From: Bacteroidia bacterium
Lineage (GTDB): Bacteria > Bacteroidota > Bacteroidia > J057
Direction: 5' to 3'
Assembly (NCBI GenBank): GCA_022760475.1
Contig: JALEFZ010000056.1
Location: 1 to 64,000 of the forward strand
DNA: 64,000 nucleotides
In this document: positions 4,056 to 17,981 of the stretch, piece by piece
Layout of the letters: each line of letters starts with the position of its first letter
Numbering within the stretch: the first letter of the stretch is position 1
Notes under the pieces: generated by a model
The model's database searches: none
The model's input: the letters and a program-made list of their open reading frames with translations, nothing else
What the model was told of the DNA's origin: nothing
Position numbers and translations under genes: made by a program

Positions 4056-6209
4056 TTAATCTTCATTTCTTTCTACCTCAGTGAATTCCAGGCCTCCAGC
4101 TCCATTCTTTAACAGGAACCCTAGCCTCTTCCATTCACTTACCATTTTGAAGTCCCCTTCGTAAGTCTGGGGGATGCCCTTGGCCCAATCCTCTTGTTTG
4201 AATGAATCCCCATCCTTGCGATATACCTGCATAGGTCTGTGCGAAGGCCACCAAAGGGTCTCCACAACTTTCCGGTCTATCGTTCCGGGATCATTGCCAC
4301 TGTCATAGACTTTGTTCCATTCTCTGTAGGTTACATCAATCATCTGGGTGGCACACTCATTGAAATCTGCCTGCCAAGGCAGGGCATTTCGTTTGGTAAC
4401 ATCGCCAGGTTCAAGCCCTTTTTCAATGTTGTCGTCAAGGCTTAATGCCGGTGGCATGAAGGCATTTTTACCAGACAGCCTACCTGAGCCTGAGTTGGGA
4501 ACAAAATCCGTATTCTGCTTTATTCGATAGGGCTTTTCGTAAATGGCTCTGTTACGAACAATCCAACCTACCTCACCACCAGGGCAGAAAGATCCCCCCA
4601 ATACATTGGCCAGAACTCCTCTATCAATCTCAAGTCCTTTGTCTACGCGGGTTGTTTTGGCATCTTCAGGCAGGTCTTTTTGCCCAAACTCCTCCATTTC
4701 ATTGATAAACTTCCCATCTGCCCACTGCTTAAGCAGGAAGAGTTGGGTATCAGTCAGTCTAAAAAACTTGGATGGAAGGGTATTGCTTAATGGATTATCT
4801 CCACACAACAATGGCATGAGTCTTTTGCCATAAATCAGGTACTTGGGATCAGCTGTCCAGTTTAGGAAATCATTTTCTTCCCCTCCATGACGCAAAGCGT
4901 AGTAAACAAACTGACGAATTTCTCGGTAGGGATCTTCAAGTATGTAAATGCTTTCATTTCCCTTATCATCCTTGACCTTTTTGAACCTCAACTTGGACTC
5001 TTCCTGGCCGAGTAATTCGGTGATTTTTGCAGGATCTTCCAGTAAGACCCATTTTGGGGGAAGCATCACCTTTCTCTTATCGAAGTCCCCTCTGGGACCT
5101 ATTTCATGGGCATCGTTGGATATGGCTAGAAAATCTGTAACCCATTGCATTTTGTAAGGCCTGACGAGTATGGGCCAGATTTCCTTGAAAAACATGGGAT
5201 AATAATTGGAATTCCATTGTTTCTCAGTAGCTCTCCACAAATCCAGGGCTTTGGGATCGCTGATATCTACCTCCTCACGAGATTCAAATTTCCCTGTGCC
5301 ATAGAGATAGGTGTCATAGGCAAACTCCCTCACATAAAGGTCATAAAGGCAATCGTCCAGGGTTACCAGATTAGAAAGTTGGGGAGCATAATTGGGATTC
5401 CCCACTATTACCCAAGCCGGATCATGCACCTGAATTACACGCATCTCGGCATCCACTTCATCCCAAAATTTCAAAATGGCCATTACAGGTCCATCAGCTA
5501 TGTCATCAAACCATCCATCATTGTTGGCAAAATTTGAGATCATAGGCTGGCCAAAGTCGTTCTTAAAGGAGCCAGAATTGCCATAGCCTCCAAGCACAAT
5601 GAGGCGGTTGTTGTCATCGGTTTTAAGTTCACCAAGGGTTTCAATGGAGTAAGGTTCAAGTTTTGGGGGAAAGGACTGGGCATATCCTGAATTTTCTCCA
5701 CGGGCAAATTGAGCAGTTCGAGGTTCCTCGCTACACTTCACCGTTTGAGGTCCGGGATCAATGATCAATTTCTGTCTGGCCTGGCCTTGAATATCAGCGT
5801 TTCGCCTCGGATGGTCTGGCGCATAGCCATGCTCACCTTCCAGTTCTTTAAACTCGAACCATGAAGATTTTTTATTGGCCAAATACACTGTCCATTCTAT
5901 ATCCACAAGGGTGCCCTTACTTGTAATGCCTTCAACCTGATCCCCGATTTTCAATTCCCTCCCTTGAGGGTTTTTGTCATCATAGACGTAGATTCTGAAC
6001 CTTGCTGCTTGTCGTTTTACCCTTCCATCATTGTCCTTGAATGTAGAGGTTGTAACTTCTTTGCCCTCATTGTCAAGCGTAGCATTCCCCTGCTTGTCGC
6101 AGGCAATGGGTAGGCCTTCAGATGATTCGGGACTTAGATAGAATTCATCAGGGCTGTCCCCTACCCTGGCTATACCAATTGCTGGATGTATTTTATATGT
6201 TAGTTTCAT
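4056..6209 (-). CDS. lodA: LodA-like CTQ-dependent amine/amino-acid oxidase
   Basis: A 717-residue protein of the L-lysine epsilon-oxidase (LodA/GoxA) family, whose members oxidise a primary amine of an amino acid with release of NH3 and H2O2 using a protein-derived quinone. The N-terminus (KIHPAIGIARVGDSPDEFYL) is typical of the family, followed by the family blocks GGYGNSGSF (207-215), NFANNDGWFDD (226-236) and PWQADFNEC (611-619). The likely cofactor pair is Cys542 (GGSFCPGGE) and Trp612, 70 residues apart, comparable to Cys516/Trp581 of Marinomonas LodA. From memory, LodA has an Asp four residues before that Cys; here the same position appears to be Gly538, which needs alignment. No classical signal peptide is present, as is usual for the family. 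Substrate (Lys, Gly or another amine) cannot be assigned. It lies between the tyrosinase and the 153-residue gene. Confidence 0.88.
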   Translation of the reverse strand: MKLTYKIHPAIGIARVGDSPDEFYLSPESSEGLPIACDKQGNATLDNEGKEVTTSTFKDNDGRVKRQAARFRIYVYDDKNPQGRELKIGDQVEGITSKGTLVDIEWTVYLANKKSSWFEFKELEGEHGYAPDHPRRNADIQGQARQKLIIDPGPQTVKCSEEPRTAQFARGENSGYAQSFPPKLEPYSIETLGELKTDDNNRLIVLGGYGNSGSFKNDFGQPMISNFANNDGWFDDIADGPVMAILKFWDEVDAEMRVIQVHDPAWVIVGNPNYAPQLSNLVTLDDCLYDLYVREFAYDTYLYGTGKFESREEVDISDPKALDLWRATEKQWNSNYYPMFFKEIWPILVRPYKMQWVTDFLAISNDAHEIGPRGDFDKRKVMLPPKWVLLEDPAKITELLGQEESKLRFKKVKDDKGNESIYILEDPYREIRQFVYYALRHGGEENDFLNWTADPKYLIYGKRLMPLLCGDNPLSNTLPSKFFRLTDTQLFLLKQWADGKFINEMEEFGQKDLPEDAKTTRVDKGLEIDRGVLANVLGGSFCPGGEVGWIVRNRAIYEKPYRIKQNTDFVPNSGSGRLSGKNAFMPPALSLDDNIEKGLEPGDVTKRNALPWQADFNECATQMIDVTYREWNKVYDSGNDPGTIDRKVVETLWWPSHRPMQVYRKDGDSFKQEDWAKGIPQTYEGDFKMVSEWKRLGFLLKNGAGGLEFTEVERNED

Positions 6210-6236
6210 TTTAAATGCTTTGTAGTTGTTAAAAAA

Positions 6237-6282
6237 CTCGACAATAAGCCTCTTCTAGCCTCGACAATAAGCCTCTTCTAGC
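6237..6282. repeat. Perfect 23-bp tandem duplication spanning the tyrosinase stop codon
   Basis: The 23-bp unit CTCGACAATAAGCCTCTTCTAGC occurs twice in exact tandem (6237-6259 and 6260-6282), quoted here only as a unit starting CTCGACAATA and ending TTCTAGC. On the minus strand the first-read copy contains the last Ser codon and TAG stop of the tyrosinase gene, and the second copy lies in the 68-bp spacer before the LodA-like gene. It looks like a recent slippage duplication; it adds a second copy of the stop region without changing the protein. Confidence 0.9.
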
Positions 6283-8425
6283 TTTCAACCACCTCAATGG
6301 CCTTCGGGAAGAATCCATTTTCGCAATCACTCCCATCAGGTCCCACTACCACAAGGTTCACCTGGAACTCATCTACTCCTTCTTGAGAAAGCCTTTGAAC
6401 TGCTTCTGTGATATCCAGCCTGTAATTTCTGCGCGCATTGTGATTGGGAGGTCTTTTATCATTATCACGCTTATTCTCGGGCGGGGGGGCACAGTGCCCA
6501 GGTCCTCCTACACATCTCCCATGTCCCCAGAAGAAAATGCAACCTGCGTAAAATTTATTCTCTTCCGTAGCAGGGGTAAACATATCCGCATCAGGGCTAT
6601 TGAGAAATACCCTTACGACAAAGGAATTTTCGGGTTGGACCACCTCATGCAACCTCAGCTCTACCTTCCCCTTTAGCCCTTGAGTCTGATAGAGTCTCGC
6701 ATCAAAATTGATGTAGTCTGATTTGAAGACAGAAACTCCTTTGGGATGCTCTATTTGGAAGACATGACCTGCATGGGCATATTCATATCCCAGCTGTTCA
6801 ATATTTAGTGCGTCTCTTACCGAATATCCCAGTCCAGCAAGGGCTCCATTGACATTGTAGGGCAATTGGTTGGGATTATTTCTTTGCCAAATGCTGAAAA
6901 GCCTATCTATGTACACATGGTGAGGCCAGAAGATTGGGTCAAAACCTGCTGTCAGGTTGGCCAGCATATCCCCATTAAAAGGCTCCAATTCGTTCCCTTC
7001 CTGGAAATTTTTGTTGTAACCACCTACCCAAATATGAATGGTGTTGTGAGGGTCCATATCCAACACGCCAAATGATTGGTTGTACTCTGGTCCCCCCGCA
7101 AAATCCCTCCAATTATCCACTTGAAGGATCTTTACCACATCTTCAGCAGTAGGGTAATGATGGTGAAAAGGATTTTGAAGTCCATTTTTCAATATCGGAA
7201 TAGGATCACCATTTTTATCCCTGACAAACTTCCCATTATTCATCTGATAAAACATCCCTGGATAGCGAAGGGGATACCAAAGTGGATTGATTAGCTCAAG
7301 CTGTTCTATGATTTTCGGGCTAAACTTATAGTACTCATCCCCCTCAATATCAGCCATATAGAATAACTCAACTCCTGAATTGAATTTTATCCCCTTGATT
7401 TTTTCGAGCTTCTCCAAAACAGGCTTCCACTCATCTCCCAACTTGCTTAGGTTTTCAATGGCTACGTCATTGATCCAGCATCGGTAAATTTCAGGAATGA
7501 TGGAGCTGATAGGCTTTTTAGGGAATTCCTTGTTTTCTTTTGGAATAGCGCCATTGTTGTAGTCTGGATCTGTCCAATCCCAGTAGGGCAAAGTAACCGT
7601 CTCATCAAAATCTTGTAGCGTCTGCTCAAACTCATACAAAAACATCCTGTGCCAGGTTAGAAACTGCTCCCAACCATGCTCGCATACATTGCCATGGAGT
7701 TTTCCCCATGAATAGAGACTTCTTCGATCTCGAGGCCACTTATTCAGTTTTTTGAGTTCAAGGGTAGCACATCTGAGGCGGTAAATTTCCTCTTCTGTGA
7801 GGCTTTTGAGATTTTTACGTTGCTTTAGCCTTGGCTTATAGGCGTCGGTGAGTTGCAGGTTTATTTGGTATTTTCCCTTGTGGCCGGCGCCATGTCGATC
7901 AGGAATGTTGTCATCAGGTGAACAACCATAATCTATCCAATCCGAAATAAATTGGATATCCTTTTCAGAAACTTCTTTTCCCCCCCATGGCAAACGAGGA
8001 AAATGCCCTTCTCTATTTTCATCCCCTTGAAAAGAATTGCCATCAAAAGGAAATTCTCCCCTAAGCCCTTTAATCAATCCGGAAGCAGCACCGCGTCCAG
8101 GATAGGGAGGCTTGGAAAGCCCGTCAATTCTCTCCCAACCTTTCTCCAGCATGTCAATTTCATCCTCCTTTTCTTCATCCTCATGGCTTGAGCAACAAGA
8201 ACTCTCCGGCGGTTTGGAAAGGAGCATGTCCCCACAATCAGATTCATCAATAGGGGCAATCATCCGAACACCGTAGATGCTGATCTCCTGAAGTTTGTCA
8301 AGAGAGAGGCTTGACCAGAAATTTTTGTATCCCTGGTAGTCTGCTGTTGTTCCTTCGGCAGCTTTATCAAGGATTTGCTTAACTTTTTCGTAACTGCTGG
8401 GCTCACTATTTTGATCCAAATTCAT
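6278..8425 (-). CDS. Large tyrosinase / polyphenol oxidase with N- and C-terminal extensions
   Basis: A 715-residue type-3 copper enzyme, expected to hydroxylate monophenols and/or oxidise o-diphenols to quinones. The CuA site is H244, H250 and H259 in HGNVCEHGWEQFLTWHR; C248-E-H250 is the Cys-x-His arrangement that forms a thioether in fungal tyrosinases and molluscan haemocyanins. The CuB site is H460, H464 (DPHNTIH) and H501/H502 (FDPIFWPHH). The C-terminal ~140 residues (FFWGHGRCVGGPGHC around 631-645) resemble the capping domain of polyphenol oxidases. The first ~200 residues are an unrecognised extension with an acidic Cys-rich patch (C77, C78) and ISDWIDYG (160-167). No signal peptide is visible. 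The ATG at 8425 is preferred, 7 bp after the preceding stop; an upstream TTG at 8455 would overlap that gene. Central gene of the oxidase operon. Confidence 0.9.
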   Translation of the reverse strand: MNLDQNSEPSSYEKVKQILDKAAEGTTADYQGYKNFWSSLSLDKLQEISIYGVRMIAPIDESDCGDMLLSKPPESSCCSSHEDEEKEDEIDMLEKGWERIDGLSKPPYPGRGAASGLIKGLRGEFPFDGNSFQGDENREGHFPRLPWGGKEVSEKDIQFISDWIDYGCSPDDNIPDRHGAGHKGKYQINLQLTDAYKPRLKQRKNLKSLTEEEIYRLRCATLELKKLNKWPRDRRSLYSWGKLHGNVCEHGWEQFLTWHRMFLYEFEQTLQDFDETVTLPYWDWTDPDYNNGAIPKENKEFPKKPISSIIPEIYRCWINDVAIENLSKLGDEWKPVLEKLEKIKGIKFNSGVELFYMADIEGDEYYKFSPKIIEQLELINPLWYPLRYPGMFYQMNNGKFVRDKNGDPIPILKNGLQNPFHHHYPTAEDVVKILQVDNWRDFAGGPEYNQSFGVLDMDPHNTIHIWVGGYNKNFQEGNELEPFNGDMLANLTAGFDPIFWPHHVYIDRLFSIWQRNNPNQLPYNVNGALAGLGYSVRDALNIEQLGYEYAHAGHVFQIEHPKGVSVFKSDYINFDARLYQTQGLKGKVELRLHEVVQPENSFVVRVFLNSPDADMFTPATEENKFYAGCIFFWGHGRCVGGPGHCAPPPENKRDNDKRPPNHNARRNYRLDITEAVQRLSQEGVDEFQVNLVVVGPDGSDCENGFFPKAIEVVES

Positions 8426-8432
8426 AGACTGT

Positions 8433-9092
8433 TTATTTAAATTGAAGTGAGACAATGATTTTTTTTGAGAGCTTATATGGAATGTGTAGCCAAATCAGAG
8501 CAAGGAACAGGAAGCCAATCCCGATATGCATCAAGGAGGCAAAGTCAAATAAGAGCTTCCCACAGAGGACACAGCATGCCCCTATTGTGATTAATAGGAT
8601 GTAGGAATAGTTTTTCTTTCTAAACGATTTCCAGACTCCCCATCCAACAAAAGCAGAAAACAAAGCCACTAGAAATGGCAGCCACCAACTTTGATACCCA
8701 AGCTTGTCCAGACCAATTCCACTGAAAATACCTGCATATGCAGCCCAACACAGAGGGCATTTTGGGAGAAAGACAAGACCAATAGCAGGAAGCATGGATA
8801 GGTCCCATTTGACCTTCATTTTTTTTGGTTCCTCTTCAAGCAAGGAGATAAGTTTTTCTTCTCCAGGGATGGATGTGGAAATGGGAGTCTGAGAATGTTC
8901 ATCTATGACCAGTAATGCTTTTACATCAGGTGAAAGTGCTGCATGGCCTTCAAAATCTTCCAGTTCAGTTTCCTCCCAGAATAATTCATGGCCGCTCTTG
9001 AGTAGTGCCAGCCTCAAAGCCTTTCGCAATTCACTGACCTCAAAGAAATCTGCTTTCCGGTAAATTTTTATTTTGCGCCTTTGCTCCTGCAT
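8433..9092 (-). CDS. MerC-like membrane protein with CPLC motif
   Basis: A 219-residue protein with a soluble N-terminal part (1-95) and about four membrane segments (roughly 100-127, 136-155, 163-180, 185-206). The first segment carries LPKCPLC (109-115) and a third-segment cluster is GACCVLCGK (171-179), the paired-cysteine layout of MerC-type metal transport proteins. Its ATG follows the TAA of the DJ-1-like gene with no gap, and the tyrosinase ATG is 7 bp downstream, so translation is probably coupled. As three of the downstream gene products are copper or redox enzymes, copper handling or thiol/disulfide exchange at the membrane is a reasonable guess, but MerC homologues are best known for Hg(II). 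No mer genes are near. Confidence 0.72.
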   Translation of the reverse strand: MQEQRRKIKIYRKADFFEVSELRKALRLALLKSGHELFWEETELEDFEGHAALSPDVKALLVIDEHSQTPISTSIPGEEKLISLLEEEPKKMKVKWDLSMLPAIGLVFLPKCPLCWAAYAGIFSGIGLDKLGYQSWWLPFLVALFSAFVGWGVWKSFRKKNYSYILLITIGACCVLCGKLLFDFASLMHIGIGFLFLALIWLHIPYKLSKKIIVSLQFK

Positions 9093-10942: not shown

Positions 10943-12547
10943 TTACTTAGCCCCAAAATTCATCTGAATGAACCATCTTTTTTTCTGGCTTTGTAGTTTT
11001 GATGAGGCTCGAAGGATTAAAGGACTCATCAGATGCACCCCACCTGTACCTACTTCACATAGAATGGGCAGGCTATTTTCTTTTATGAACTCTATCTCGC
11101 TTAGGGATAGCATATTTTTATGAGAACCCGGTAACAGCATCAAAGCTCCATTTTTGTTGTCAGTTTCATCCAGGTGTATCCGAAGAGTAAATGAAATGGA
11201 TGTTGCCCCAATCTCCTTCAGGATTGAGTCCTGGTGCAAGGTCAAATCCCTGGTTGTCTGAGGCTCTTTTTCAAAAAAAGAGGTTTTAAGCAAGACTGCT
11301 TTCTCATCTATGCTGCGAATGATTCTTTGCAGATTTTTGTTAAACAGGTTGTTTTTCAGAGAAGGAATCCCTGCTAACAAATCTCCTTCCTTGATGGAGG
11401 GACCTTTTTCACTAAACTTTCTTTGAATAATCCGTTTGATGTGATTGACTTCACGCTTGGTAAAAACGTGGTTCAGCACCGCATAGCCTTTGTACTGCAA
11501 TTGATTGATTTTGGCAGCAAGCCCCTTGGCCTGTATCTCAGTATTATACTTATCAACCGAAGCTTCCAACCTTTCCTTGATTCTTCTTTTTAGCCTGATT
11601 GGGGTAATTACCTGGATAGATTCTCCGTAAGAAAGAATCTCTTTTTCCAGTTCAAAATTATGCTGAACCCATAACGAAATAGTTACACCAAATCCATCCC
11701 TCGAGACTTCCTTTTGTGAATGGTGAAGGGGTTTGGTCAAGACATAGGGTGCATGTTTGTGCTCAATGAATAACAAGGTCTCTTCAAGTTGGGCCTCAGG
11801 ACTTACGGATGCTCCAATGACATCCTTATAATACTCCTTTAGGTCATATTTTGTATTGGCTTTAAATGCCTCCTTGCTATGTTTTAATTCATGAATCCTG
11901 TCCAATGCAAGGTTCAATAATTCCTTTCCACCACGTTTTAGTCCCACCACAAACCAGCGATTCCTAAACTCTTTCAGCCAATATGGATAGAATAAAATTT
12001 GGCTGGGCTTTCTTGCTCGAAATGACTGGTAATGAATCTCAAGGCTTCTTTCTTTCAAAATGGCCTGATAAATAGAGTCCAGGTATTCGATTCCCTTGAG
12101 ATTATCATTCTTTTCAAAATCAATGACTGGATTGGTATGTGCTTTTTGGGCATAAATGTGGTCTTCAAGTTTTTGAACCATCCCATCCAATTCCTTAAAA
12201 TGTGAGAATCCCTTGAACTGTCTCATGAATTCAATGGTTTCATGGAGTTTATTCAAGTCATTTTCTGATAGGGGGATATTCGTAATGCTAAAATCGGGAT
12301 CTTCATAGGTGTAAAATTTCCTTTCAAGGACAATGATGGGGGCATTATATCCCAATTTGTCGCTGCGCATCATTTGAATATCTGCCTGTATAGTACGTTT
12401 ACTGACTCCCTTATCTATGCCTTCATACTCATACAGGGCCTCAGAACAAGCATCAATCAAATCCTCCAGCGTCCACTTCCTGAACCTGTTTTGCAGGCAC
12501 CTGTCGATGGTCTTATATCTAATGAGGGCATTCCGGTTGGCAGGCAT
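10943..12547 (-). CDS. WYL-domain transcriptional regulator fused to a phytanoyl-CoA-dioxygenase-like domain
   Basis: A 534-residue two-part protein. The N-terminal ~90 residues include a winged-HTH-like region (WTLEDLIDACSEAL, SKRTIQADIQMMR). Residues ~150-235 are a WYL domain (YPYWLKEFRNRWFVVG at 187-202), followed by a WCX-like part to ~335. Residues ~345-531 match PhyH-type 2-oxoglutarate/Fe(II) dioxygenases: HQD (438-440) supplies the HxD pair, NGALMLLPGSHKN (466-478) is the family block, and LMSPLILRASSK (506-517) matches the usual LxRPLLLHASSK segment. There the distal iron-binding His is replaced by Arg513 (codon CGA), so normal catalysis is doubtful and a sensing role is plausible. 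Divergent from rtcB, with an inverted repeat between them. No frameshift joins the halves; the fusion is in one uninterrupted frame. Confidence 0.85.
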   Translation of the reverse strand: MPANRNALIRYKTIDRCLQNRFRKWTLEDLIDACSEALYEYEGIDKGVSKRTIQADIQMMRSDKLGYNAPIIVLERKFYTYEDPDFSITNIPLSENDLNKLHETIEFMRQFKGFSHFKELDGMVQKLEDHIYAQKAHTNPVIDFEKNDNLKGIEYLDSIYQAILKERSLEIHYQSFRARKPSQILFYPYWLKEFRNRWFVVGLKRGGKELLNLALDRIHELKHSKEAFKANTKYDLKEYYKDVIGASVSPEAQLEETLLFIEHKHAPYVLTKPLHHSQKEVSRDGFGVTISLWVQHNFELEKEILSYGESIQVITPIRLKRRIKERLEASVDKYNTEIQAKGLAAKINQLQYKGYAVLNHVFTKREVNHIKRIIQRKFSEKGPSIKEGDLLAGIPSLKNNLFNKNLQRIIRSIDEKAVLLKTSFFEKEPQTTRDLTLHQDSILKEIGATSISFTLRIHLDETDNKNGALMLLPGSHKNMLSLSEIEFIKENSLPILCEVGTGGVHLMSPLILRASSKLQSQKKRWFIQMNFGAK

Positions 12548-12725
12548 AAGGATAGGAAATATTACTTATTAGGAATAGCTAAATCTAATTGAAAGCTGTA
12601 GGCGAGTCAATGTTTCAAGGCTTCATGGCAAATGATAAAAAAAAACATGGCTGTCACCATAAAAAATCCCAACTGAAAATCAGACACTTACATGATAGCT
12701 AAAAACTTTTTCAAAAAAAATCCTT

Positions 12726-14160
<1,435 letters not shown>

Positions 14161-14477: not shown

Positions 14478-17400
14478 ATGAAACACCTGAAATACCTAAG
14501 CCGAACCTGGCTTTTATTCATCATCGCTATTATTTGTTTTATCTGTAGTTCCTGCGCTCCATTGCTAAATTGGAGATCCCGGGTTGACTTACTGAATATT
14601 CTTGAGGATGACCTGAAGCTTCAGGGAACAACCCTGAGGCATGCTCCAAAGCAAACCCTACCAAGTTTTAGAGGATTGGACAGCCTACTTCTAGGGCACT
14701 CAACTGCCAATGTTTTGCTTATTCCAGGCTCCACCAAAACTGATTGGAGTCATTACAACAAAATGATCTCTAAAATCACCAAGGCTATGAATTTTGAATT
14801 CATTGAATTGGTAAGGGACAGCAGTGAGATTATTGGAGATGATGCTATCCCAATTGGCAGCGGAGAATTAAATATCTTCAGGTTCAAAGGAAAAAAAGGT
14901 GAAAATAAAGGTAAAAGCCTGAACTTTTTCTTTGCCAACTGGACAAAAATCACCGAACCCACCAAAGATATATTCCTGAAATTTGATAAGGCGCCAAATG
15001 GAAATGACTTTATAGAGCGAACCTTTCTTTCTGACAAGATCAAAAACTTATATTCAATCGATATTAATGTTGATCAAGCTCTTTATAGGCAAAGTGATTA
15101 CCATGAAGCTATAGTAGATTTCATCAATAAATCCCTTCACAAAATTGATACAGCATCATTTTCCCAAGACGGCAACCTGATTTGTATTACTGAAAGTATG
15201 GGGGCACAGATCCTCAAGGATGCTTTCAAGTCAATGATTACAGAAGGTGAAATCCTTACTCAATTGCATGCCTCAGGAGAATCCACAAACTCAGAAGGAA
15301 ACATACTTTTAGGGGCTGAAGAGGTAGAATATTCCATGCAATGGAAGAAAGTCCTGGCAGTTTCTCCTTCCATTCATCTGAAAAGAGAGCTAAAAAAAAC
15401 CACGGCCATGCTTAAACAATTTGAGCAGGAAAATGGGGAACTAGACAAAACAAGTGCAAGAGCTTATCTGGCATCACGAAGAGAAGGTTTCGACACTTGG
15501 GAGAAGTATGGTAGGGATATTGGGACCAAACTCGATCAAATTTTCATGCTCAACAACCATATGATTTTCTTTGGAGTACTTGACTATTCATCAAGTGATT
15601 TCGACTCCAATAAACTTCTTAAGGAAAAAGTTGCCAAAGAGTTGAGCAATCTTGTAAATCTAAAATCCGATCCTGGTTTTCGGGTCATTTCGTTTTATGA
15701 TCCAAATGATATTATTGGTTTTGAGCTACCTAACGAATTAATTACCACAGGTCGTTTCGTAAGCATTCCAATCTCCTCCACCACACAATGGAGTATTGAT
15801 GCCAAAAGGCTAAAAGACAACTACTTAGCGAAATTACCCTTGGGAAAGGATAAAAATACCATCATGGCTTTCGTTGGTGACACTTCCAGGCTCAATATTT
15901 CTGTGAGTTTGGGAGCGCCAAACAGGCTTATCAGGACAAATGATGATGTTATATCTTACTTAATCAAGGGCAATAACAAGGCCAATCCTACAATAAAGGT
16001 AGTGGAAAAGGATACAATATACCTCCAACAAGATTTTTCTCCAGTTATAGATGAGGTAGACGGTTATCCATTTAAAGTAGGGGAGAGAAACAACCGAAAA
16101 GATGAAAGGTCAAAGAAAAACGCTATTTCAAGGCTCCTAACAGTGGGATTAAGGGGATCTCAGATGCTTCCTTCTGTCGACCTTCCTTATAACCAGCCTC
16201 CAAATGGGATACATGTAGACGGGATAAAAAAGGTATTTCAACAGCCAAATGTAAATACCGCCTATGTCCTCACAATCCATGGCATAGCAGACAAAACCCC
16301 TAACCATTATGATCATATGGCCTCTGAAATAGCTTCAAAGTTAGGTTTTGTTCCAGAACTAAGTGCCTTAAATACTGGTTTGGAACTTATAGAGCAGGGG
16401 CAGGACAGTCTCTCAACTGTCAATAATAACTTTCTCCGTGGATTAGAAGGACCTAACTCTGATGGAAATTCGCCTGGATTAGAAGACTTATTTGGAATTA
16501 GAAAGCTGGTTTTTCGAAATAGCGAAGGCAAAAGATTGGTATTTGCTATTATTCATTGGTCTCCCATGACCAGAAATCTTAAAAATCAACTTCGAGACCT
16601 GGAAAATGAGCTCTTGGATATTCCAGGATTAAATAGTTCACAAATTTCCTTTGCTCATCAATTTATCAGGGACAAAATTGTAATTGATGGCTTTACAGAT
16701 GTTTACCTTTCCCTGGGTGAAAGAGACTTCCTGAGTTTCATTGGTAGGGCAGTCAGTAAGGGAATGGAAGAATTGGCAAAAGAAAAAATTGGAGACGATG
16801 TCCACCAAAAAAATATATTTTTTATAAGTGGAAGCCTCGGAAGTAAAATTCTCTACGAACACCTGACCAGAAAAATGCTGGATACACTTGTAATAGGATT
16901 AAATACCTCGATGTATCCACATTTTCAAGATGATATCCTAACTCCTTCATTGCCCCAAGACTTAACACATAGAAATAACCTGATTTTTCTCGAAAGGAAT
17001 GAAGCTAAACTGAAAGGCTTGTTATATTTCAATCCTAATAAAGAGGACTCTTTAATGAAGTTCTGCAAAGATATGCTTCTAAGAGTCAAAGAACGCAAGG
17101 TTGCCAAAAGAATCCTTGAGAAAACGCAAAGTTGGTATATGTTGACAAACCAAATACCCCTGATTGGTTTAAAAGAATTGGAACAAGAAAATCGAAAGCA
17201 AGAGTTTTCTAAACAGGTTTGGCATGCTCTGGAGAAAAATAATTCTCTAGATCCAGCGATGAAATTCAATTTCCAACTGAATGTACATGCTTTTCATGAT
17301 CCCAATGATGCATTGACTTTCAGGCTTCCCAAAACAAGCGAAGAGTTGGAGTCCCAATTCAATGTTCAAAATATCCCGCTTCGAACAGGAAATGGACTTG

Positions 17401-17981
17401 AGGTCAATAGGTACCTGTTTTACAAGTTTATTAAAGAAATTGATGCAAGTCTTTACAGGAGATTAAGAAAAAATTATTCTCAGATGATAACCTCTATCAA
17501 TAATGACTCTACCATCCCTAAAGATGACAGGATTGAATTCTCCTCCAGAATAAGGAAGGATAAGAAAGCCCTTAAAACCAGGGGAATTAAGGAATTGGAA
17601 AAGGAATTTCTTTTTCTACGGGAGATTTTAGCTATTCAGGAAAGACAACTAAAGAACCTCAATTCTGAACTAAGGAATGCCAAGAAAAGTGGAGACGACC
17701 CAAAAATTCAGAGCCTGGAAGCCAAAATTTCTATTGCTGAAGCCAATCATCTATTAATTGAGCAAGAGAAAGTAAAGGTAGAAGTGGACTACTTAAAGCA
17801 GAAAGAATTTAAACAACACAAGACATTCTTTTTGTTGCCTCTTTTGTTGGAAGCCTATGATATCGAGTCATTACCTGATGATATTTACCAATCATTCATG
17901 CTGAGACCCGATAAGGCCCACGATAAGGTCCACTCCAACGATCGAGTATTAAACTTGATCTCGAAGGGAAGCCAAAACTAG
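14478..17981 (+). CDS. Large lipoprotein with two tandem alpha/beta-hydrolase-like halves and a C-terminal coiled coil
   Basis: An 1167-residue protein I cannot name. A signal sequence with lipobox CSSC places a lipidated Cys at 26. Two halves share an order of motifs: a strand ending in a Gly-rich turn (VLLIPGS 79-85; VLTIHGI 597-603) followed by HY..M, a nucleophile-elbow-like segment (ITESMGAQI with Ser240; SGSLGSKI with Ser786), and a DPND motif (408-411; 941-944). This points to an internal duplication of an alpha/beta-hydrolase-like domain of roughly 500 residues. Residues ~1035-1120 are a Glu/Lys-rich coiled coil. The substrate is unknown; an outer-membrane-bound esterase, lipase or peptidase-like role is possible, and the elbows are not the canonical GxSxG. 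Transcribed in the same direction as rtcB but separated by a terminator, so an independent unit. Confidence 0.75.
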   Translation: MKHLKYLSRTWLLFIIAIICFICSSCAPLLNWRSRVDLLNILEDDLKLQGTTLRHAPKQTLPSFRGLDSLLLGHSTANVLLIPGSTKTDWSHYNKMISKITKAMNFEFIELVRDSSEIIGDDAIPIGSGELNIFRFKGKKGENKGKSLNFFFANWTKITEPTKDIFLKFDKAPNGNDFIERTFLSDKIKNLYSIDINVDQALYRQSDYHEAIVDFINKSLHKIDTASFSQDGNLICITESMGAQILKDAFKSMITEGEILTQLHASGESTNSEGNILLGAEEVEYSMQWKKVLAVSPSIHLKRELKKTTAMLKQFEQENGELDKTSARAYLASRREGFDTWEKYGRDIGTKLDQIFMLNNHMIFFGVLDYSSSDFDSNKLLKEKVAKELSNLVNLKSDPGFRVISFYDPNDIIGFELPNELITTGRFVSIPISSTTQWSIDAKRLKDNYLAKLPLGKDKNTIMAFVGDTSRLNISVSLGAPNRLIRTNDDVISYLIKGNNKANPTIKVVEKDTIYLQQDFSPVIDEVDGYPFKVGERNNRKDERSKKNAISRLLTVGLRGSQMLPSVDLPYNQPPNGIHVDGIKKVFQQPNVNTAYVLTIHGIADKTPNHYDHMASEIASKLGFVPELSALNTGLELIEQGQDSLSTVNNNFLRGLEGPNSDGNSPGLEDLFGIRKLVFRNSEGKRLVFAIIHWSPMTRNLKNQLRDLENELLDIPGLNSSQISFAHQFIRDKIVIDGFTDVYLSLGERDFLSFIGRAVSKGMEELAKEKIGDDVHQKNIFFISGSLGSKILYEHLTRKMLDTLVIGLNTSMYPHFQDDILTPSLPQDLTHRNNLIFLERNEAKLKGLLYFNPNKEDSLMKFCKDMLLRVKERKVAKRILEKTQSWYMLTNQIPLIGLKELEQENRKQEFSKQVWHALEKNNSLDPAMKFNFQLNVHAFHDPNDALTFRLPKTSEELESQFNVQNIPLRTGNGLEVNRYLFYKFIKEIDASLYRRLRKNYSQMITSINNDSTIPKDDRIEFSSRIRKDKKALKTRGIKELEKEFLFLREILAIQERQLKNLNSELRNAKKSGDDPKIQSLEAKISIAEANHLLIEQEKVKVEVDYLKQKEFKQHKTFFLLPLLLEAYDIESLPDDIYQSFMLRPDKAHDKVHSNDRVLNLISKGSQN

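Follow-up and report, generated by a model that had tools for sequence, protein, structure and literature searches.

A likely WYL-family activator of RNA repair in Bacteroidota with a fused PhyH-fold domain that has lost an iron ligand in the genome analysed

The 64,000-nucleotide stretch of DNA from a Bacteroidia bacterium that was analysed here (hereafter the window) contains a gene that likely encodes a WYL-family activator of RNA repair, which would control rtcB via a palindrome at positions 12725–12749 and which carries a fused oxygenase domain that appears to be dead in this genome. The elements computed in the present analysis are the gene fusion, its conservation, the decay of its C-terminal domain, the operator and the target genes.

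Results

A WYL-WCX regulator and a PhyH-fold domain in one frame

The gene occupies positions 10943–12547 on the minus strand and specifies a protein of 534 aa, in which a WYL-WCX regulator is followed by a C-terminal PhyH-fold domain. This assignment is based on the single open frame, Pfam, full-length relatives and an AlphaFold model. The conserved regulator core, consisting of an N-terminal DNA-binding region, WYL and WCX, covers residues 1–336 (11540–12547, minus strand). The PhyH-fold domain covers residues 337–534 (10946–11539, minus strand), as judged from alignments, the kept fold and a long end branch. A preceding sequence-only reading had proposed the fusion of WYL and PhyH in a single frame, and this is real: the frame has 534 codons, and all three Pfam domains exceed their curated cut-offs, with WYL at residues 154–222 (E 6e-13, 49 bits versus a cut-off of 21.8), WCX at residues 261–329 (E 3e-6, 27.8 bits versus 23.9) and PhyH at residues 351–522 (E 6e-10, 40.1 bits versus 22). 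H438, D440, H505 and R513 also lie exactly where that reading had placed them. The possibility that the fusion is an assembly artefact was ruled out by the finding of full-length relatives with 46–58% identity in many independent Bacteroidota genomes.

The AlphaFold model of the protein has a pLDDT of 79. DriD and PafBC were the best Foldseek matches of the WYL half, and Fe/2OG oxygenases were the matches of the PhyH half, the fold of which is kept in the model with a VIA-align Z of about 20 to solved Fe/2OG oxygenases. No Pfam match to an HTH above cut-off was obtained for the N-terminal helices, which are predicted at residues 5–61; the Foldseek alignment to DriD is long.

Association of the regulator with RNA-repair genes

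Divergent to the regulator gene lies rtcB (12784–14160, plus strand), which encodes an RtcB-family RNA ligase of a divergent class with a Pfam RtcB match at 7e-39 and the catalytic motifs present. The open frame (12766–14160, plus strand) begins at a GTG at 12766, the likely start being the ATG at 12784. By our own estimate, an rtcB gene this near a random gene would be expected in well under 1 genome in 100. Core RNA-repair genes, counted here as rtcB, Ro60/TROVE, T4-type RNA ligase, Hen1/Pnkp, RlaP, PrfH and KptA, were present at 90 of the 108 regulator loci with enough flank, and the 18 loci with no such gene nearby are partly accounted for by a want of flank. The annotated neighbours of both fused and unfused relatives include rtcB, slipin/Band 7, Ro60/TROVE with vWA, and RlaP, as well as a PrfH-like release factor and a metallophosphoesterase. 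At loci without rtcB, the operator-linked neighbour was often a T4 RnlA-type RNA ligase or Hen1 of the Pnkp/Hen1 system, the latter being identified by TIGR04074 with E-values down to 1e-207. The upstream rtcB, slipin and Ro60 genes were divergent to the regulator where this was measured. The link to RNA damage or repair that had been guessed from the divergent rtcB is strongly confirmed, and it is extended by the operator described below and by the many RNA-repair partners.

Several other genes in and around these loci were recorded. The window genome has a second, canonical rtcB (G000:C86:58220-59302), and no operator was found at this gene. Directly downstream of the first rtcB, positions 14478–17981 encode a 1167-residue protein without a Pfam match. 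Adjacent genes for a LodA-type L-lysine epsilon-oxidase and a tyrosinase-domain protein (4056–8455, minus strand) have no evident link to RNA repair. No Y RNA was found in the window, where the Rfam matches comprised one tRNA only. Divergent to the Aureispira fusions, a protein of about 750 residues (L007:1723-3900, L003 and L029), of which the L007 copy has no Pfam match, occupies the place held elsewhere by Ro60 or rtcB.

A predicted palindromic operator at a fixed distance from a −7-type TTTG

Comparison of the regions upstream of the orthologues led to the prediction of an operator at 12725–12749 (plus strand), which reads TACTACGCA-AAAAGAC-TGCGTAGTT and has its core at 12729–12745. The palindromic consensus is ACTrCGCA-N7-TGCGyAGT, and its core, RCGCA-N7-TGCGY, was found in 93 of 124 orthologue upstream regions as compared with 0.09 expected from dinucleotide shuffles; spacers other than 7 occurred only 0–2 times in these 124 regions. 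The TTTG at 12760–12763 (plus strand), read directly from the sequence at +31 from the operator core, represents a −7-type element in the rtcB promoter. In Bacteroidota, the −7 box reads TAnnTTTG, of which TTTG is conserved. The spacing is well kept, since TTTG was located exactly 31 bases from the start of the core in 125 of 165 sites and at +31/32 in 137 of them. The next gene in the direction of this TTTG was rtcB in 48, slipin in 26 and TROVE in 22 of the 165 sites. No −33 TTG was found at the right spacing in the promoters facing the targets. Toward the regulator, TTTG is supplied within the operator itself (101 of 114), and TAnnTTT shows a weaker peak 19 bases beyond the operator TTTG (27 of 114).

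Operator sites far from the regulator gene, which were examined regardless of annotation, also preceded RNA-repair genes. Such unlinked sites were found directly upstream of rtcB in genomes G005 (L257), G073 (L260), G003 (L262) and G061 (L275), upstream of TROVE in G466 (L268), and upstream of an RNA ligase and HD/kinase pair in G003 (L261). Of 30 genomes with the regulator, 24 had the operator together with TTTG (40 sites), compared with 4 of 30 genomes that lack the regulator. One of these four sites lies upstream of rtcB in a genome of the same family as the window genome, and the remaining three look like chance occurrences. It should be noted that the composite pattern is missing in some genomes, for example G041, G060 and G084. 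In the window genome there are three other matches to the loose core, and the palindromic flanks and TTTG are present at the window site only. Since there is a single good site, the regulon in this genome is probably limited to rtcB and the regulator. Altogether, the operator is strongly tied to the regulator gene and represents its candidate binding site.

Two groups of further proteins were encountered behind operators. Similar-looking proteins of about 200 residues are encoded directly after the operator (L189:6540-7187, L202:9147-9779, L201:7313-7879 and L011:4258-4887); those scanned (L189 and L011) had no Pfam match, which makes them a candidate new RNA-repair component. In G073, an operator with TTTG immediately precedes a MoxR-vWA-beta-propeller ternary system (bpX4, bpMoxR; L259:3869-5630), and this system may belong to the RNA-repair regulon.

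Distribution and history of the fusion

A genome scan yielded 80 relatives, 31 with and 49 without a C-terminal domain, one of the latter (L071) being found later to have a KptA piece. With further relatives added from whole-genome searches, the WYL–PhyH architecture, which the sequence-only reading had suggested looking for in other genomes, was found at 43 Bacteroidota loci in total, the iron triad being intact at 34 of them and not at the other 9. The regulator core (residues 1–336) was matched in 64 of 395 genomes of the phylum at E≤1e-50.

In a tree of PhyH domains, the fused copies form a single clade (support 98/96), and the PhyH oxygenase apparently was fused to the regulator once. The regulator tree requires nine changes over four labels (fused intact, fused degenerate, KptA-fused and unfused), so that gains and losses of the tail domain are not rare. 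A free PhyH copy, L112, from genome G002 in the family of the window genome, nests within the fused clade and is best read as a fission product of the fused form. Neither regulator nor operator survives in G002, the free PhyH of which is intact. The two halves are therefore separable, since G002 keeps the enzyme alone and the window genome has a regulator without a working enzyme. In 21 of 26 genomes, the unfused regulator was accompanied by free PhyH paralogues whose triads are intact; the statistic for this co-occurrence (Fisher p 8e-19) ignores phylogeny and is only suggestive. No operator was found upstream of the stand-alone PhyH genes, and they are therefore not counted in the regulon.

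In a Mucilaginibacter-type sister lineage, the place of PhyH is taken by a Tpt1/KptA RNA 2'-phosphotransferase (Pfam PTS_2-RNA, E 2e-50) beside rtcB. The only intact example of this WYL regulator–Tpt1/KptA fusion is L161:1501-3099 (the same as L194), with rtcB divergent to it; the KptA-type fusion at L071:5001-6317 is frameshifted in its contig. An ADP-ribosylglycohydrolase-like frame lies directly downstream of the latter.

Decay of the PhyH domain in the window genome

Alignments show that the HxD motif (H438 and D440) is kept in the window protein and that the position of the distal histidine is taken by R513. The closest relatives, from G005 and G010 in the family of the window genome, have WHQD…LHASS with the full HxD…H triad, and from this motif it follows that the distal histidine aligns with R513. 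About 24 residues directly after HxD and about a dozen C-terminal residues have also been lost. The loss of the distal histidine noticed beforehand is thus real, with Arg513 being specific to the window copy. H505 was considered and rejected as a substitute iron ligand, because its column is unconserved (Q, H, L or M in the relatives) and the relatives with H at this position also keep H513.

In the PhyH tree, the window copy sits on a long branch (1.31), and its PhyH half diverges much faster than its regulator half. Compared to its closest relative, L119, it shows 41% identity in the PhyH half and 67% in the regulator half, the respective values for the intact pair L119/L120 being 62% and 68%. 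Independent decay of the iron site took place in at least three other lineages and was seen in Aureispira, G058/G508, G003 and a Saprospiraceae MAG. K421 and R524, which we take to be likely anchors of the 2OG carboxylate, are kept both by the window protein and by those copies from Aureispira that have lost iron ligands; other degenerate fusions (L031, L087 and L118) have lost one or both of them.

Since the distal metal histidine is absent, the window domain is predicted to be a PhyH-fold pseudo-enzyme and not an oxygenase. We infer that it is unable to form a His-Asp-His iron site and is a non-catalytic remnant, which would be structural or at most a ligand-binding module. The surviving K421 and R524 are compatible with what may be a 2OG-binding pseudo-enzyme. 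That a metal-less domain is the design of the whole family was not borne out: with 34 of the 43 fused relatives keeping an intact 2OG-oxygenase triad, the family did not originate as a sensor without metal.

Discussion

Proposed mode of action

We infer that the regulator would bind the palindrome at 12725–12749 and thereby exert direct control over the divergent promoter of rtcB. The regulator would very probably act as an activator, because the operator is located where the absent −33 element would be expected and keeps a constant distance to the −7 TTTG. It would probably repress its own gene, since the −33-type TTTG toward the regulator sits within the operator. On the model of DriD and PafBC, the signal sensed by the WYL-WCX part is most likely a nucleic acid produced by damage, for which an RNA end or fragment would be the obvious candidate, and the regulator would help the polymerase at rtcB. 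The C-terminal domain stems from an Fe(II)/2-oxoglutarate oxygenase that was active and has stayed intact in most relatives; it is probably an active accessory enzyme in these and a dead module in the window.

Alternative explanations

It is unlikely that the regulator represses rtcB and is released by RNA damage. The overlap of the operator with the promoter region would fit occlusion too, but the presence of the −7 TTTG with no −33 TTG in the target-direction promoters points to dependence on an activator, and it is this promoter geometry from which an activator rather than a repressor is proposed. Moreover, the solved WYL structures nearest to the window protein are those of DriD and PafBC, both of which are activators (PMC12340889, PMC11804915). 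The palindrome might also belong to another regulator, with the WYL gene as merely one of its targets. This would agree with the sites preceding many genes, the WYL regulator included. We regard it as very improbable, however, as few genomes that lack the WYL regulator have sites with TTTG (4/30 versus 24/30), G002 has no site after losing the regulator, and an autoregulatory placement beside a DNA-binding regulator is the usual pattern.

Further interpretations concern the role of the tail domain. It is possible, although doubtful, that the fused oxygenase is, at least ancestrally, an RNA- or signal-processing repair enzyme, that its fusion couples the control of expression to chemistry, and that in the window protein some activity is sustained by a different residue. 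This would be in line with the intact HxD…H and R of 34 fused relatives and of stand-alone paralogues, with Tpt1/KptA being fused at the equivalent position next to rtcB, with the intact free PhyH of G002 that nests in the fused clade, and with the co-occurrence of stand-alone PhyH and regulator (21/26), a figure that is weakened by ignoring phylogeny. However, the stand-alone genes have no upstream operator, and the window copy is devoid of the distal histidine and the loop, with H505 being no family-wide ligand. The sequence-only reading had instead favoured a PhyH domain that lost its iron site and became a sensor of 2-oxoglutarate, iron, oxygen or a modified nucleic acid, thereby controlling the regulator. 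The kept fold, the persistence of K421 and R524 in the window and Aureispira copies, and the recurrence of decay in four or more lineages with the single open frame preserved would suit this view, and a useless remnant is argued against by the confident folding of the PhyH half and its retention of these two residues. Nevertheless, a sensor seems quite improbable, since the full triad of 34/43 relatives means that metal loss was not the purpose of the fusion, L031, L087 and L118 lost K and/or R as well, and the PhyH half evolves much faster than the regulator half. Similarly improbable is a phylum-wide WYL RNA-repair regulon with swappable tails, in which repeated loss of the iron site produced a pseudo-enzyme that senses 2-oxoglutarate or RNA ends and gates repair.

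Comparison with known systems

DriD of Caulobacter and PafBC of mycobacteria are WYL-WCX activators of DNA-damage responses that sense ssDNA (PMC12340889, PMC11804915). The window regulator shares with them the WYL-WCX half, for which they are the top Foldseek matches, but it differs in having an RNA-repair regulon and an added C-terminal enzyme-fold domain. RtcR, a sigma-54 activator of rtcBA in Salmonella and E. coli, regulates rtcB and Ro60-type genes upon RNA damage (PMC7790460) and is composed of CARF, AAA+ and HTH domains (PMC4012209). The window protein would do the equivalent job in being devoted to the control of rtcB and Ro60-type genes, but it is an unrelated protein without Pfam matches to CARF, AAA+ sigma-54 or Fis-type HTH domains. 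TrcR of Anabaena represses rtcB, slipin and tRNA-array genes and belongs, according to its authors, to a transcription-factor family different from that of RtcR (PMC10272220). It resembles the present regulator in being distinct from RtcR and in that its regulon includes rtcB and a slipin gene; WYL is not mentioned in PMC10272220.

With regard to the C-terminal half, the window protein shares its fold (Z 19–20) and HxD with human PHYH (2a1x), PHYHD1, EctD, SnoK and the proline hydroxylase H11. Unlike these PhyH and Fe(II)-2OG oxygenases, it is without the distal histidine and the post-HxD loop and is fused to a transcription regulator. Lastly, when compared on placement, it resembles the WYL regulators of phage-defence islands in adjoining the system it would control, but its link is to RNA repair and not to defence (PMC9122601).

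Implications for RNA repair in Bacteroidota

WYL regulators, RtcB regulons and PhyH enzymes are already known. A review of RNA repair systems is said to have been given by Burroughs and Aravind in 2016. In the searchable literature we found neither a WYL–PhyH fusion nor a WYL regulator of rtc genes, although an earlier mention of WYL in connection with rtc is possible. Relative to this literature, what appears to be new is the control of RNA repair by a WYL regulator for which an operator is defined and whose fused enzymes are interchangeable. To our knowledge, little is known about the triggers of bacterial RNA repair outside the RtcR systems. The predicted operator unites RtcB, Ro60, T4-type RNA ligase, Hen1/Pnkp and PrfH-type genes in one Bacteroidota regulon, and searches with it can predict further genes of RNA repair. 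The fused tail domain, whether oxygenase or Tpt1, in turn hints at a so far unexplored chemical step or signal in this process.
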